NCBI RefSeq assembly: GCF_002095485.1
Contig: NZ_MLFS01000001.1
Coordinates: forward strand, 1 to 64,000
Length of the DNA: 64,000 bases
Source: Pantoea wallisii
GTDB taxonomy: Bacteria; Pseudomonadota; Gammaproteobacteria; Enterobacterales; Enterobacteriaceae
Reading direction: 5' to 3'
In this document: piece after piece, positions 19,392 to 26,061 of the stretch
Layout of the letters: every line of letters starts with the position of its first letter
How positions within the stretch are numbered: the first letter of the stretch is position 1
Made by a program: the position numbers and the translations under genes
Notes under the pieces: model-generated
Databases searched by the model: none
The model's input: only the letters and a program-made list of their open reading frames with translations
What the model was told of the DNA's origin: nothing

Positions 19392-20315
19392 ATGCTCGCC
19401 AAACTTACCCGCCTGTTCCCACTCTGGGCCGTGCTGCTCTCCGTTGCGGCCTACTATTCGCCGTCAACTTTCCTCGGTATTGGTCCGTGGGTCACTTATC
19501 TGCTGATGCTGATTATGTTCGGCATGGGCGTAACGCTAAATATTGACGATTTTAAACGCGTGCTGGTGCGTCCGGCGCCGGTTGTTGCCGGCACCTTCCT
19601 GCACTATCTGGTGATGCCGCTGGCGGCCTGGGCGCTGGCGAAGCTGTTCCAGATGCCGCCGGATCTGGCTGCCGGCATGATTCTGGTGGGCAGCGTTGCC
19701 AGTGGCACCGCATCCAACGTGATGATCTATCTGGCGAAAGGGGATGTAGCGCTGTCGGTTACCATCTCATCGGTTTCTGCGCTGGTGGGCGTCTTTGCTA
19801 CGCCGCTGCTGACGCGCTTCTACGTGGATACGCACATTCAGGTGGATGTGGTTGGCATGCTGCTAAGCATCGTGAAAATTGTGGTGATCCCGATTAGCCT
19901 CGGCCTGATCATCCACCATTCGATGAACAGCGTGGTACGCCGCGTTGAGCCTTATCTGCCGGCGTTTTCGATGGTCTGTATTCTGCTGATCATCAGTGCG
20001 GTGGTCGCGGGCAGTCAGGGCTTTATCGGTTCGGTGGGCCTGATGGTGATTGCAGCGGTGATATTGCACAACGCGATTGGTCTGCTCGGTGGTTACTGGG
20101 GCGGTAAGCTGTTTGGGTTTGATGAATCCACCTGCCGCACGCTGGCGCTGGAGGTCGGTATGCAGAACTCTGGCCTGGCGGCCACGCTGGGCAAGCTCTA
20201 CTTCTCACCGCTGGCGGCCCTGCCTGGCGCGCTGTTCTCGGTCTGGCACAACCTCTCCGGTTCTCTGCTGGCGGGTTACTGGTCGGGTAAAACGATTGAG
20301 AAGAAGCAGAAATAA
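19392..20315 (+). CDS. panS: BASS-family sodium symporter, probably pantoate transporter PanS
   Basis: This 307-residue protein has eight to ten hydrophobic segments and the bile-acid:sodium-symporter family marks: [13 protein letters not shown] (about residue 47-59), [21 protein letters not shown] (about 98-118) and the C-terminal [16 protein letters not shown] with sodium-site residues. It resembles Salmonella PanS, a ketopantoate/pantoate transporter, and Bacillus YocS; I recognise the subfamily but not the substrate with certainty. The start ATG 19392 follows CTAAGGACA. It stands alone: 260 bases from lysC upstream, and palindromic repeats follow. E. coli K-12 has no counterpart beside lysC. 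Confidence 0.75.
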
Positions 20316-20571: not shown

Positions 20572-20895
20572 TTATTCTTTTTTTACTGATGCAGGAAAAG
20601 CCAGAAAGGGGAAGAGTAAATAAGGTGCAACGATTAAAAGAATAAACACTCCCCGTGAATATCCCGCATCGTTTATTCTTCTGCTGCCACAAGCCAGCGA
20701 TGGCATAACAAAGAGCAGTAAAGGAATCCATGCTATTTCATTAGTGAGTGAAGCAAACATGCTAAGATAACAACAAAACCAGATAATCTGGAACATCATA
20801 AAAGCGATGTAATATAAGCGGCTATCTTTGCCACTATAATCAAACGTCTTAATCAATCCATTTTTTATTGGTGTTAATAAGAGAGTCAGCGCCAT
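20572..20895 (-). CDS. DUF805-family small membrane protein
   Basis: The protein has 107 residues, about four hydrophobic segments and the motif SRRINDAGYSRG (about residues 71-82), the hallmark of DUF805 inner-membrane proteins such as E. coli YhaH. The function of the family is unknown. ATG 20895 is preceded by GGTGG ten bases upstream. It follows the small gene at 20939-21262 by 43 bases on the same strand, so the two form one unit. Codon and base composition are distinctly AT-rich compared with the flanking genes, suggesting acquisition by transfer. Confidence 0.75.
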   Translation of the reverse strand: MALTLLLTPIKNGLIKTFDYSGKDSRLYYIAFMMFQIIWFCCYLSMFASLTNEIAWIPLLLFVMPSLACGSRRINDAGYSRGVFILLIVAPYLLFPFLAFPASVKKE

Positions 20896-20938
20896 TTTTT
20901 TCTAACCACCATAAAAATGATGAGAGACAGCAAGGCTG

Positions 20939-21262
20939 CTAAAGCATAAGCGGTAGCAAGGCTAAAATTATCAATATGTACCCCGCATAATCCAGTGCGA
21001 ACCGGGTGTCTTTATCAGCGGAGTTATGTTGGATGAGATGTGCGCCTGATAATATTTTTATTCGCTGCCACAAGGAAATGTTATCTGCAGTGATTTTATG
21101 ACCTTCGAGATACACGTCCTGTTTGCGATAAAGTTGGTAAACCATTTTGTGAACCTGGATCAGCGAGGCGCCAATACCATGCCAGTTAAGCGCATCACGG
21201 TTGTAGATCCGTTCGATGATAATGAATATCCCGGTTCCTTTATAAGATTCAATATTGTTCAT
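20939..21262 (-). CDS. Unrecognised small protein with C-terminal membrane segment
   Basis: I do not recognise this 107-residue protein. It opens MNNIESYKGTGIFIIIERIY, has a charged, mostly polar middle (GHKITADNISLWQRIKILSG) and ends in a single strongly hydrophobic helix (FALDYAGYILIILALLPLML), so it is probably tail-anchored in the inner membrane. Expression signals are good: AGGAGG seven bases before ATG 21262, and a promoter at 21288-21317. It leads a two-gene unit with the DUF805 gene. Composition is AT-rich, unlike the core genes on both sides. Confidence 0.65.
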   Translation of the reverse strand: MNNIESYKGTGIFIIIERIYNRDALNWHGIGASLIQVHKMVYQLYRKQDVYLEGHKITADNISLWQRIKILSGAHLIQHNSADKDTRFALDYAGYILIILALLPLML

Positions 21263-21287
21263 AGCGTCATCCTCCTTGAGTTAGTGG

Positions 21288-21317
21288 ATTATAACTAATG
21301 ATTAGAGTTGCTTACAA
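21288..21317 (-). promoter_or_regulatory. Predicted sigma-70 promoter of the AT-rich gene pair
   Basis: On the minus strand TTGTAA (21317-21312), an 18-bp spacer and TATAAT (21293-21288) lie about 25 bases upstream of the first start codon. The -10 hexamer is a perfect match to consensus. Confidence 0.55.
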
Positions 21318-21596: not shown

Positions 21597-22189
21597 CTAC
21601 AGCTTCAGGTAAACCCGAATCCCGTCCAGGAACATCTGCGTCGCCAGCATAATTAATATCAGCCCCATCAGGCGCTCAAGCGCGTTAACGCCCTTATCAC
21701 CGAGCAGGCGCAGGAATAGGCCGGACATCAGTAAAATTGCCACGGTTACGCCCCAGGCGATCAGCAGCGCGCCCACCAGGTGCGTCATTTGATGGGGATA
21801 CTGATGCGAAAGCAGCATCAGTGTCGCCAGCAGTGACGGGCCGGCAACCAGCGGAATCGCCAGCGGCACCAGGAAGGGCTCTTCACCGGCCGGCAGGCCG
21901 CTGGTACTGGTCTCGCCAGAGGGAAAAATCATGCGGATAGCGATCAAAAACAGAATTACGCCGCCGGAGATCGACACGGTTTCGGTGCGCAGATTCAGGA
22001 AGGTCAGAATGCGCTCGCCGGCAAACAAAAACAGCAGCATCAGTGCCAGGGCGATTAGCAGCTCGCGGATCAGTACCACACGGCGACGCTTTGGCTCCAG
22101 ATGCTTCAGCACCGACATAAAGATCGGCAGGTTGCCCAGCGGTCCATAATCAACAACAGCAGTATGGTCGCGGATATCATCTCAGTCAT
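21597..22189 (-). pseudogene. yhgN: MarC-family membrane protein YhgN, frameshifted as read
   Basis: YhgN is an integral membrane protein of the MarC family with about six transmembrane helices; its function is unknown. The good start at 22189 gives MTEMISATILLLLIMD and then loses frame. One base is missing at about 22141 (a Pro codon CCG reduced to CG before LGNLPIFMSVLKHLEPKRR). Restoring it gives exactly 197 residues, the E. coli length. The remaining 173 codons are intact (SGGVILFLIAIRMIFPSG, GLPAGEEPFLVPLAIPLVAGPS, RLMGLILIMLATQMFLDGI). In E. coli yhgN also adjoins asd. A sequence error is likelier than a true mutation. Confidence 0.9.
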
Positions 22190-22407
22190 TATTAGTAAAC
22201 CATCCCTTCAGGTCGGCCACGGCCGTTATTAGTTGTACTGCTGAAAAAGTTAGCGCAATCGAATTAATTCACTTGCCAGAAGTGCTGCATTTTGTAGAGT
22301 TGAGGGTCCCAGGTAAACCTGAATTACGCAGACTGGCGTATAAACCGCGTCAGATCTTTTACTCGCACCATACAGGCCTCGGCCAGAGCTCCTGAGACGG
22401 ACAGAAA

Positions 22408-23561: not shown

Positions 23562-23875
23562 ATAACGTCCGGCTGCAAAACTTAATGCAAATTGCGCCCG
23601 ACAAGTGATCCGCTTCCCCTTTTTGCTCGTCAGATAAGAATTTTTTGCGTTCCTCCCTGGCAACTGCCAACCCCAAGCTATGATTTAACAGTAATGTGCC
23701 GGTTGTTAACTGTTTTTACTTTGTGAATTGAATAGTTGTTGTACACGGCAGACATCTTTTCCATGGACGGTGTCCTTGCTTGCTGCTGTATGTATGGCTC
23801 AATGAAAAGCAGCGCACCAGTAGCGACATTGTCGTCTCTGCGGTCGCCTGCGCCAAAAATCATAGGAAGAAAGTC
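23562..23875 (+). promoter_or_regulatory. Leader and promoter region of glgBXCAP
   Basis: No gene is supported here. An open frame begins at 23780 but its first 32 codons have no family match, and the true glgB start is 23876. The region must hold glgB promoters; I could not pick a convincing -35/-10 pair or regulator site. Confidence 0.4.
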
Positions 23876-26061
23876 ATGTCAGAGCTTCCCGATCGCCAGG
23901 CGATCAATGCCCTTTTTGCCGGGAATTATGCCGATCCCTTTTCTATCCTTGGGATGCACCAGACGCTACAGGGTCTGGAAGTGCGTGCGCTGCTGCCGGA
24001 TGCATCCGAAGTGTGGGTCATCGAAACCAATACCGGGCGCAAATGTGCCCAGCTTAAATGCCTTGATTCACGCGGCTTTTTCAGCGGCGTGATTCCGCGT
24101 CGTAAAAATCTGTTCCGTTACCAGCTGGCGGTGAACTGGCACGGCCAGCAAAACCTGATTGATGATGCCTATCGCTTTGGTCCGCTGCTGCCGGAGATGG
24201 ATGCCTGGCTGCTGGCGGAAGGCACGCACCTGCGCCCTTACGAAACCATGGGGGCCCATGGCACCACCATTGATGGCGTAAGCGGTACGCGCTTCGCCGT
24301 CTGGGCGCCAATGCGCGCCGCGTCTCCGTAGTGGGTGAATTCAACTTCTGGGATGGCCGCCGCCACCCTATGCGATTCCGCCGCGAACTCGGCATCTGGG
24401 AGCTGTTTGTTCCTGGCGCAGTCAATGGCCAGCTGTATAAATATGAGATCATCGATAACAGCGGGCAGATGCGCATAAAAGCCGATCCGTTCGCGTTCGA
24501 GGCGCAGATGCGTCCGCAGACCGCCTCCATGATCTGTAGCCTGCCGCCGAAAGTCGAGATGCAGCCACAGCGCAAAGTGGCCAACGGATTTGATCAACCT
24601 ATCTCCATTTACGAAGTGCACCTTGGTTCGTGGCGCCGGCACACGGACAACAATTTCTGGCTGAGCTACAAAGAGCTGGCCGAGCAGTTGATCCCTTACG
24701 TCAAAGAGATGGGCTTTACCCATATTGAGCTGCTGCCGATCAACGAACACCCATTTGATGGCAGCTGGGGCTATCAGCCCCTTGGCATGTATGCGCCGAC
24801 GCGGCGTTTCGGAACGCGCGATGAGTTCCGCCATTTCGTTGCGGCGGCGCATGATGCGGGCATCAACGTGCTGCTCGACTGGGTGCCGGGCCACTTCCCC
24901 AGCGACGATTTCGGCCTGGCGAAGTTCGACGGCACCGAACTGTATGAGCACAGCGATCCGCGCGAAGGTTTCCATCAGGACTGGAATACGCTGATTTATA
25001 ACTTTGGCCGTCGCGAAGTCAGTAACTACTTATCCGGCAATGCGCTGTACTGGGTGGAGCGTTTTGGCATTGATGGCCTGCGCGTTGATGCCGTGGCCTC
25101 AATGATCTATCGCGACTACAGCCGGAAAGAGGGCGAGTGGGTACCCAATCACTTTGGTGGGCGTGAAAACCTCGAAGCCATCGCTTTCCTGCGCACCACG
25201 AACCGTACGCTGGGACGCGCGGCTGCGGGCAGCATCAGCGTGGCAGAAGAGTCTACCGACTATCCGGGCGTCACCCGTCCATCAGAGGATGGCGGTCTGG
25301 GCTTCTGGTTCAAATGGAACCTGGGCTGGATGCACGACACGCTGGATTACATGAAGCTCGATCCGGTGCATCGTCGTTATCACCACCATCTGCTGACGTT
25401 CGGCATGCTCTACAACTACACCGAAAACTTCGTGTTGCCGCTGTCGCATGACGAAGTGGTTCACGGCAAAAAATCGATCCTCGATCGTATGCCGGGCGAT
25501 TCATGGCAGAAGTTCGCCAACCTGCGCGCCTACTACGGCTGGATGTGGGGCTTCCCGGGCAAGAAGCTGCAATTCATGGGCAATGAGTTCGCGCAGGGGC
25601 GCGAGTGGAACCATGACAGCAGCCTCGACTGGCATCTGCTGGAGGGCCTGGATAACTGGCATCACGGCGTGCAGCGCCTGGTGCGCGATCTTAACCACAG
25701 CTACCGTCACTACACACCGCTCTACCAGCTCGATTTTGACCCGAACGGTTTTGAGTGGCTGGTGGTGGACGATCATGAAAACTCGGTATTTGTATTTGTG
25801 CGCCGCGATCGCGACGGTAACGAACTCATTGTTGCCAGTAACTTTACGCCAGTGCCGCGCCATGATTACCGCTTCGGCGTCAATCAATCAGGCGGCTGGC
25901 GCGAAGTGCTGAATACCGATCAGCACGACTATCATGGTAGCGATGTGCGTAATCACGGCATTGTGCACACGGACGCGATTGAGAGTCACGGTCGTGCGCA
26001 GTCGCTGAGCGTGTCGCTGCCGCCGCTGTCCACCATCTGGCTGGTGCGGGAGGGCGACTGA
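23876..26061 (+). pseudogene. glgB: 1,4-alpha-glucan branching enzyme GlgB, frameshifted as read
   Basis: GlgB makes the alpha-1,6 branches of glycogen. ATG 23876, with AGGAAG seven bases upstream, gives [23 protein letters not shown]. The frame breaks at about 24311, where CCA-AAT appears as CCA-AT (one A lost in a run of A), so [20 protein letters not shown] is truncated to a stop at 24331. Restoring the base gives exactly 728 residues, as in E. coli. The rest is intact: N-terminal CBM48 modules, then the GH13 barrel with [13 protein letters not shown] (nucleophile Asp about 405), AEESTDYPG (acid Glu about 458) and [12 protein letters not shown] (Asp about 526). It heads glgBXCAP. The downstream genes are intact, so a sequence error is likely. 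Confidence 0.93.

Follow-up and report, generated by a model that had tools for sequence, protein, structure and literature searches.

Gene content of the AT-rich unit beside yhgN

The stretch of Pantoea wallisii DNA analyzed here (the window) is 64,000 nucleotides long and carries on its minus strand two ORFs that encode 107 amino acids each, at positions 21262–20939 and 20895–20572. The first-pass annotation had described them as a two-gene unit, an unrecognized protein followed by a DUF805 membrane protein. That both ORFs run in the same direction was borne out, as was the contrast in composition with the neighboring DNA: the GC content of 20572–21262 is 0.395, compared with 0.571 for the whole window, and is matched or undercut in only 5 of 1267 sliding windows. 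All sliding windows with a GC content of ≤0.42 overlap the AT-rich unit. Ahead of the first ORF is the AGGAGG ribosome-binding site noted in that annotation (21271..21276, minus strand), 8 nt before the ATG. A sigma-70-like promoter, TTGTAA-18-TATAAT, lies farther upstream (21288..21317, minus strand). TATAAT and AGGAGG both recur in the closest relative, genome G054, and as a pair are absent from the other upstream stretches compared. The promoter assignment thus stands in part: the sequence has 10 of 12 matches and is kept in G054, but a scan returned 2 sites of this quality in the region versus 3.9 ± 2.3 in shuffled sequences, which is not above chance.

The unit is flanked by an ORF at 19392–20315, which we take to be panS, and by an ORF starting from 21597, which we take to be yhgN; these names, like asd, glgB, gyrA, and ubiG below, were assigned by inspection of the protein sequences. 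Of the rearrangement boundary proposed between panS and yhgN, what stood is that the flank beyond the unit differs among relatives. The unit sits between yhgN and either panS or a putative gluconate permease, and the site is therefore variable. Two genes nearby are themselves interrupted. The frame of yhgN (21597–22190, minus strand) is broken near its start, leaving an ORF of 173 amino acids compared with 197 in relatives, and glgB (23780–26061, plus strand) appears as two ORFs, of 183 and 576 amino acids, compared with a single 727-amino acid ORF in G032. Such interruptions may be either errors of the draft or real breaks.

Origin of the upstream ORF

The upstream ORF matched nothing in Pfam up to an E value of 1. 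A match of this fragment to the NCBIfam model PaiA, at 17.8 bits against a cut-off of 250, was rejected as chance. When 99 genomes, including that of the window, were searched with the ORF, it was found in 12. Nine of the matches stop at residues 95 to 97; the corresponding frame is open for 198 to 215 codons in eight of these genomes and for 121 in the ninth, G054. The match reaches residue 103 in G010 and only residue 43 in G030. Over residues 1 to 95, identity is 93% to G054 and 65 to 76% to eight others.

Relatives carry at this locus a module of three genes in one direction, which we call A (~195 residues), B (~142 residues, with several hydrophobic stretches), and C (~107 residues, DUF805), and in most loci neighboring genes overlap by a few bases. 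The window DNA follows G054 through A as far as codon 94, from where it passes directly into the tail of B: in the blastn alignment, window bases 20982 and 20980 map to G054 positions 1781 and 2415, which are ~633 bp apart, corresponding to a deletion of ~0.63 kb. Identity to relatives, alignment, and dN/dS define codons 1 to 94 of A (20981..21262, minus strand). The segment that encodes residues 95 to 107 and the stop of the upstream ORF (20939..20980, minus strand) is 3′ DNA of gene B read in the wrong frame, as seen by blastn against G054 and by three-frame translation. Read in frame 0, positions 20886..20980 (minus strand) give a C-terminus like that of whole B proteins, with a hydrophobic stretch and a stop; as relatives also show, this end of B overlaps the beginning of C.

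On this sequence evidence, a single deletion almost certainly joined and destroyed A and B, leaving the upstream ORF as a wreck within a decayed module. What had been taken for an unrecognized 107-residue protein is accordingly the degraded first half of the longer A, and the C-terminal membrane helix assigned to it belongs to out-of-frame B DNA past the junction. The supposed two-gene unit represents the remains of a three-gene module with an internal deletion, and the unknown gene becomes a recognizable fragment. In G054, the sister of the window genome in a yhgN/asd tree, A is interrupted by stops and the frame of B is broken, and C is whole.

We considered whether the fusion might instead be a new working gene made of the N-terminal half of A and a new hydrophobic tail. 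Its frame is open and its promoter and ribosome-binding site are kept, but the tail consists of B DNA read out of frame, A is interrupted by stops in the sister lineage G054, and it is wrecked in other ways in G030, G019, G045, and G015/G037/G053; we judge a new gene very improbable. That the deletion is an assembly error in a strain that really has a whole A–B–C module is scarcely credible: the draft does have the broken frames in yhgN and glgB, but a clean 0.63-kb deletion is atypical of base errors, and the same gene carries different lesions in related genomes.

Distribution and decay of the module

Of the 61 genus-group genomes, 21 have at least one of A, B, and C, with matches to A in 12, B in 15, and C in 20; these genomes are related, and the counts are not numbers of independent events. 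After the loci were read, A was scored as clean in seven genomes (G010, G017, G020, G031, G032, G043, and G050), and among the 21 genomes, B was whole in 13 and C in 19. G009 was left out of the clean set because ATG is missing from the usual start position, leaving only a GTG directly behind the ribosome-binding site; including it would raise the number to eight. All seven clean A genes are accompanied by a whole B and six of them by C, which has no match in G031 and is partial in G019. Elsewhere, A has lost its start codon (G045), carries stops (G054), or is cut by deletions (G000, G019, G030, and, through one deletion in common, G015, G037, and G053), and it has no match in G001, G016, G034, G038, and G049. 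Counted as distinct lesions with remnants rather than as losses on a tree, there are at least six (G000, G030, G019, G015/G037/G053, G054, and G045), to which Rosenbergiella gaditana adds one. In G030 (locus L012, 1492–2034), the deletion leaves about the first 40 codons of A joined in frame to B, and the resulting 180-amino acid ORF might pass for a new gene.

A scan of named genomes returned six loci, of which three were already counted; L022, L023, and L027 were taken as G009, G020, and G010 and counted once. Outside the group, Brenneria sp. 4F2 has A–B–C, Rosenbergiella epipactidis has A–C and no B, and R. gaditana has a cut A and a whole C. The location of the module varies. It can lie next to yhgN; Pantoea ananatis LMG 2665 carries it in the gyrA–ubiG interval, and Rosenbergiella and Brenneria have it at still other sites. 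G001 has C alone at another site, and in four other genomes with C only, C lies 15 bp behind yhgN. More widely, gene A is rare: samples of 394 genomes from the order and 398 from the phylum each contained 3 with A, one of them the window's own genome. The pairing of the two ORFs, which the first-pass annotation had offered for checking in other genomes, holds in one direction: the clean-A modules read in Enterobacterales all have C except for G031 (A–B), but C often occurs without A, and the rhizobial and Escherichia coli homologs of A described below have no adjacent C. G020 (L010) and G038 (L078) are sisters in the yhgN/asd tree, with A–B–C in the former and C only in the latter and with different C proteins; the locus has therefore been exchanged or lost repeatedly.

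Gene C and selection on the module

Gene C (20572..20895, minus strand) is intact, encodes a 107-amino acid protein with 92% identity to that of G054, and is the DUF805 member it had been called, scoring 31.5 bits against PF05656 (gathering cut-off 25.7). C of L003 scores 34.6 bits, and Pfam gives no DUF805 hit for the divergent C of P. ananatis (L011). The sequence is hydrophobic by eye, and an AlphaFold2 model of middling confidence (mean pLDDT 69.7) is all-helical, with helices at residues 26–51, 56–77, 81–89, and 91–99, so that C is probably a small polytopic membrane protein. We take E. coli YhaH and YhaI to be DUF805 members as well. A profile of C matched nothing among PDB sequences up to an E value of 1, a Foldseek search of the PDB with the model gave nothing convincing (best E value 3.2), and plasmid records searched with the window's C yielded no match up to an E value of 0.001. 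Compared with most genomes, G043 and G045 have a C that is shorter by three residues.

We estimated dN/dS using only pairs with pS below 0.6. Clean A pairs gave 0.06 to 0.29 and B pairs 0.10 to 0.43. Between the window and G054, dN/dS is 0.17 for C and also 0.17 for the A fragment over 95 codons, from which we infer that A probably remained functional for a large part of the period after the two lineages split. In four genomes without A and B (G016, G034, G038, and G049), dN/dS of C is 0.07 to 0.10 at dS of 0.17 to 0.58, and for the lone C of G001 compared with C of G010 it is 0.08. In the group around G032, values for C are higher and range from 0.15 to 0.72, with 1.9 in two pairs that have almost no synonymous change.

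Homologs of A in type VI secretion loci

Searches with A by tblastn returned Rhizobium plasmid records, one Salmonella record, and one E. coli record. The rhizobial and E. coli homologs have 23 to 27% identity to the reference A (L022) and share positions such as G-x-D-P-x-P. In 18 of 18 Rhizobiales loci (13 Rhizobium plasmid records and five genomes), A starts ~70 to 170 bp behind hcp. In the annotated rhizobial records, the next gene is vgrG, which one record names otherwise; three rhizobial records are without annotation. Three genome stretches likewise continue into vgrG, and the remaining two of the five end too early to show it. Some of these loci read hcp–A–vgrG with no candidate immunity gene between, and where annotated, rhizobial A precedes varying effector pairs. 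Within a sample of 297 Rhizobiales genomes, Hcp was found in 47 and A in five, all of them among the 47, and A is therefore an optional extra of type VI secretion system (T6SS) loci, as a cargo would be.

Among E. coli genomes, 534 of 5426 have a homolog of A. In the two annotated regions read, it lies in a T6SS island near yafV, behind the place of cpe1/cpi1 and an ISAs1 remnant; the homolog (L028, 16110–16613) is called a hypothetical protein in the annotated E. coli records. Neither B nor C is adjacent to the rhizobial or E. coli homologs. In Salmonella Senftenberg (L015, 5900–6363), a homolog that appears frame-broken lies beside sseK1.

In the window's own group, Hcp is present in 57 of 61 genomes, and co-occurrence of A and Hcp there therefore carries no information; the window's genome has three hcp genes. 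Neither the unit in the window nor the Erwiniaceae loci that we read show linkage to hcp or vgrG; these loci contain no T6SS core gene, the nearest being an orphan hcp ~3 kb away in G032 and G050. In G032 (L082, 6735–7984), the asd–glgB interval holds this orphan hcp together with genes for an 88-amino acid hydrophobic protein and a Tlde1-domain protein, ~3 kb from A.

Whole A of L003 had no match in Pfam, NCBIfam, PADLOC, or PHROGs, and rhizobial and P. ananatis A had none in Pfam. The family libraries gave no toxin or delivery domain in A (MIX, PAAR, or Hcp/VgrG fusion), and neither these libraries, a PDB profile search, nor structure prediction gave a catalytic motif or fold. Two hits of the A profile among PDB sequences (E values of 0.48 and 0.97) were set aside as chance, and A was rejected as a relative of Hcp (hhalign probability of 0.2%). 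Structure prediction from five sequences gave no usable model (mean pLDDT 39.3). No relatives of A were detected in viral contigs with the Enterobacterales alignment, E. coli A, and one rhizobial A as queries or in phage records with rhizobial A. Gene order and sequence similarity are strong grounds for tying the A family to T6SS loci, and such a tie is very probable; judged by these, A belongs to a protein family that has no library entry and is linked to the T6SS in two classes of bacteria.

A possible cargo/immunity cassette

We propose that the unit may be an orphan T6SS cargo/immunity cassette, one that lost its weapon, A, and kept its membrane protector, C, and we put the chances of this reading at about even. 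A–B–C would be a small cassette present at several chromosomal sites. A would be a small soluble cargo that is sent through the Hcp tube and is harmful in the cell envelope of a neighbor; its size, the lack of an evident signal sequence, its place behind hcp, and its patchy presence all point this way. B and C, as hydrophobic proteins encoded in the same operon as A, may be inner-membrane proteins that protect the producer. Lineages would lose A easily, through deletions, stops, or a lost start codon, and retain a membrane partner, and it is this asymmetric decay, with A lost in several ways, that suggests a toxin and its protectors. The window bacterium would be left with C only, a protector without a weapon and perhaps a leftover immunity function. 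For the toxin and immunity roles of A and its partners as such, we place the probability slightly below even. The broader proposal, that A represents a family of T6SS toxins linked to Hcp and so far undescribed, with this branch of DUF805 as their immunity proteins, is tentative and on balance somewhat unlikely.

Several observations count against the cassette. The rhizobial and E. coli homologs stand without B and C, some rhizobial loci have no candidate immunity gene between A and vgrG, the Erwiniaceae loci read are without T6SS core genes, and A is rare. The searches with A also yielded no delivery domain, catalytic motif, or fold. C is absent beside the whole A–B of G031 and B is absent beside the whole A of R. 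epipactidis, so that neither partner is indispensable. Where C stands alone it is strongly conserved, which would also suit a role of its own for this DUF805 protein.

A could alternatively be a T6SS accessory rather than a toxin, for example an Hcp-binding adaptor or chaperone, orphaned in Enterobacterales together with membrane partners of other function. Its fixed place directly behind hcp in all of the Rhizobiales loci agrees with this, as does its position there ahead of varying effector pairs with no immunity gene of its own. An accessory fits poorly with the small share of Hcp-bearing Rhizobiales genomes that have A, with its separation from T6SS core genes in Erwiniaceae, and with the repeated lesions in A while C stays; we consider it unlikely. 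Less plausible again is that A–B–C is an envelope module unrelated to antagonism, in which C is a housekeeping or stress DUF805 protein able to live alone. The low dN/dS of C in the four genomes where it stands alone behind yhgN, and of the lone C that G001 keeps at another site, is what such a module would lead one to expect, but the occurrence of A homologs in T6SS loci of two bacterial classes would be left unexplained.

On the broader proposal, the window would record a disarmament, with the toxin deleted and its DUF805 protector under selection; if the immunity reading is true, one branch of DUF805 would gain a testable role. Independently of this, the fragment points to a protein family that lacks a library entry and has T6SS ties in two classes of bacteria.

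Comparison with known systems

The window's C resembles DUF805 (PF05656) in passing the gathering score and in its all-helical model and differs in that the match covers profile positions 2 to 91 of 111 and that C of L011 is unmatched. A and B were not met as partners of DUF805 in the accessible parts of the literature mentioning this family; in the portion available of one such paper (PMC6329079), DUF805 appears in one line of a table on a J-domain protein. A literature search, with subscription journals mostly outside its reach, found no paper joining DUF805, type VI secretion, and immunity.

As far as the available portions of the reports go, there is also a likeness to T6SS effector–immunity modules and orphan immunity genes, as in the Vibrio cholerae arrays (PMC5361080) and Bacteroidales rAID (PMC12247911), where, as in A–B–C, a cargo-like gene is lost, a membrane partner kept, and the locus exchanged between strains. 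The module here differs in having no adjacent T6SS gene, no known toxin domain, and a C that is conserved in C-only genomes. In one case studied in the latter report, orphan immunity genes accumulate amino acid changes, whereas lone C is strongly conserved, which argues against the cassette reading.

The hcp/vgrG islands of Pantoea and Erwinia, as described in the accessible part of PMC3235180, likewise contain low-GC genes and occur in the same genera; those islands are in T6SS loci, whereas A–B–C is found at yhgN or between gyrA and ubiG. The Re78/Re79 effector–immunity pair of Rhizobium etli Mim1 (PMC10215855) resembles rhizobial A in belonging to a rhizobial T6SS cluster with hcp and vgrG nearby and differs in the signal peptide of Re79 and the transmembrane domain predicted for Re78.
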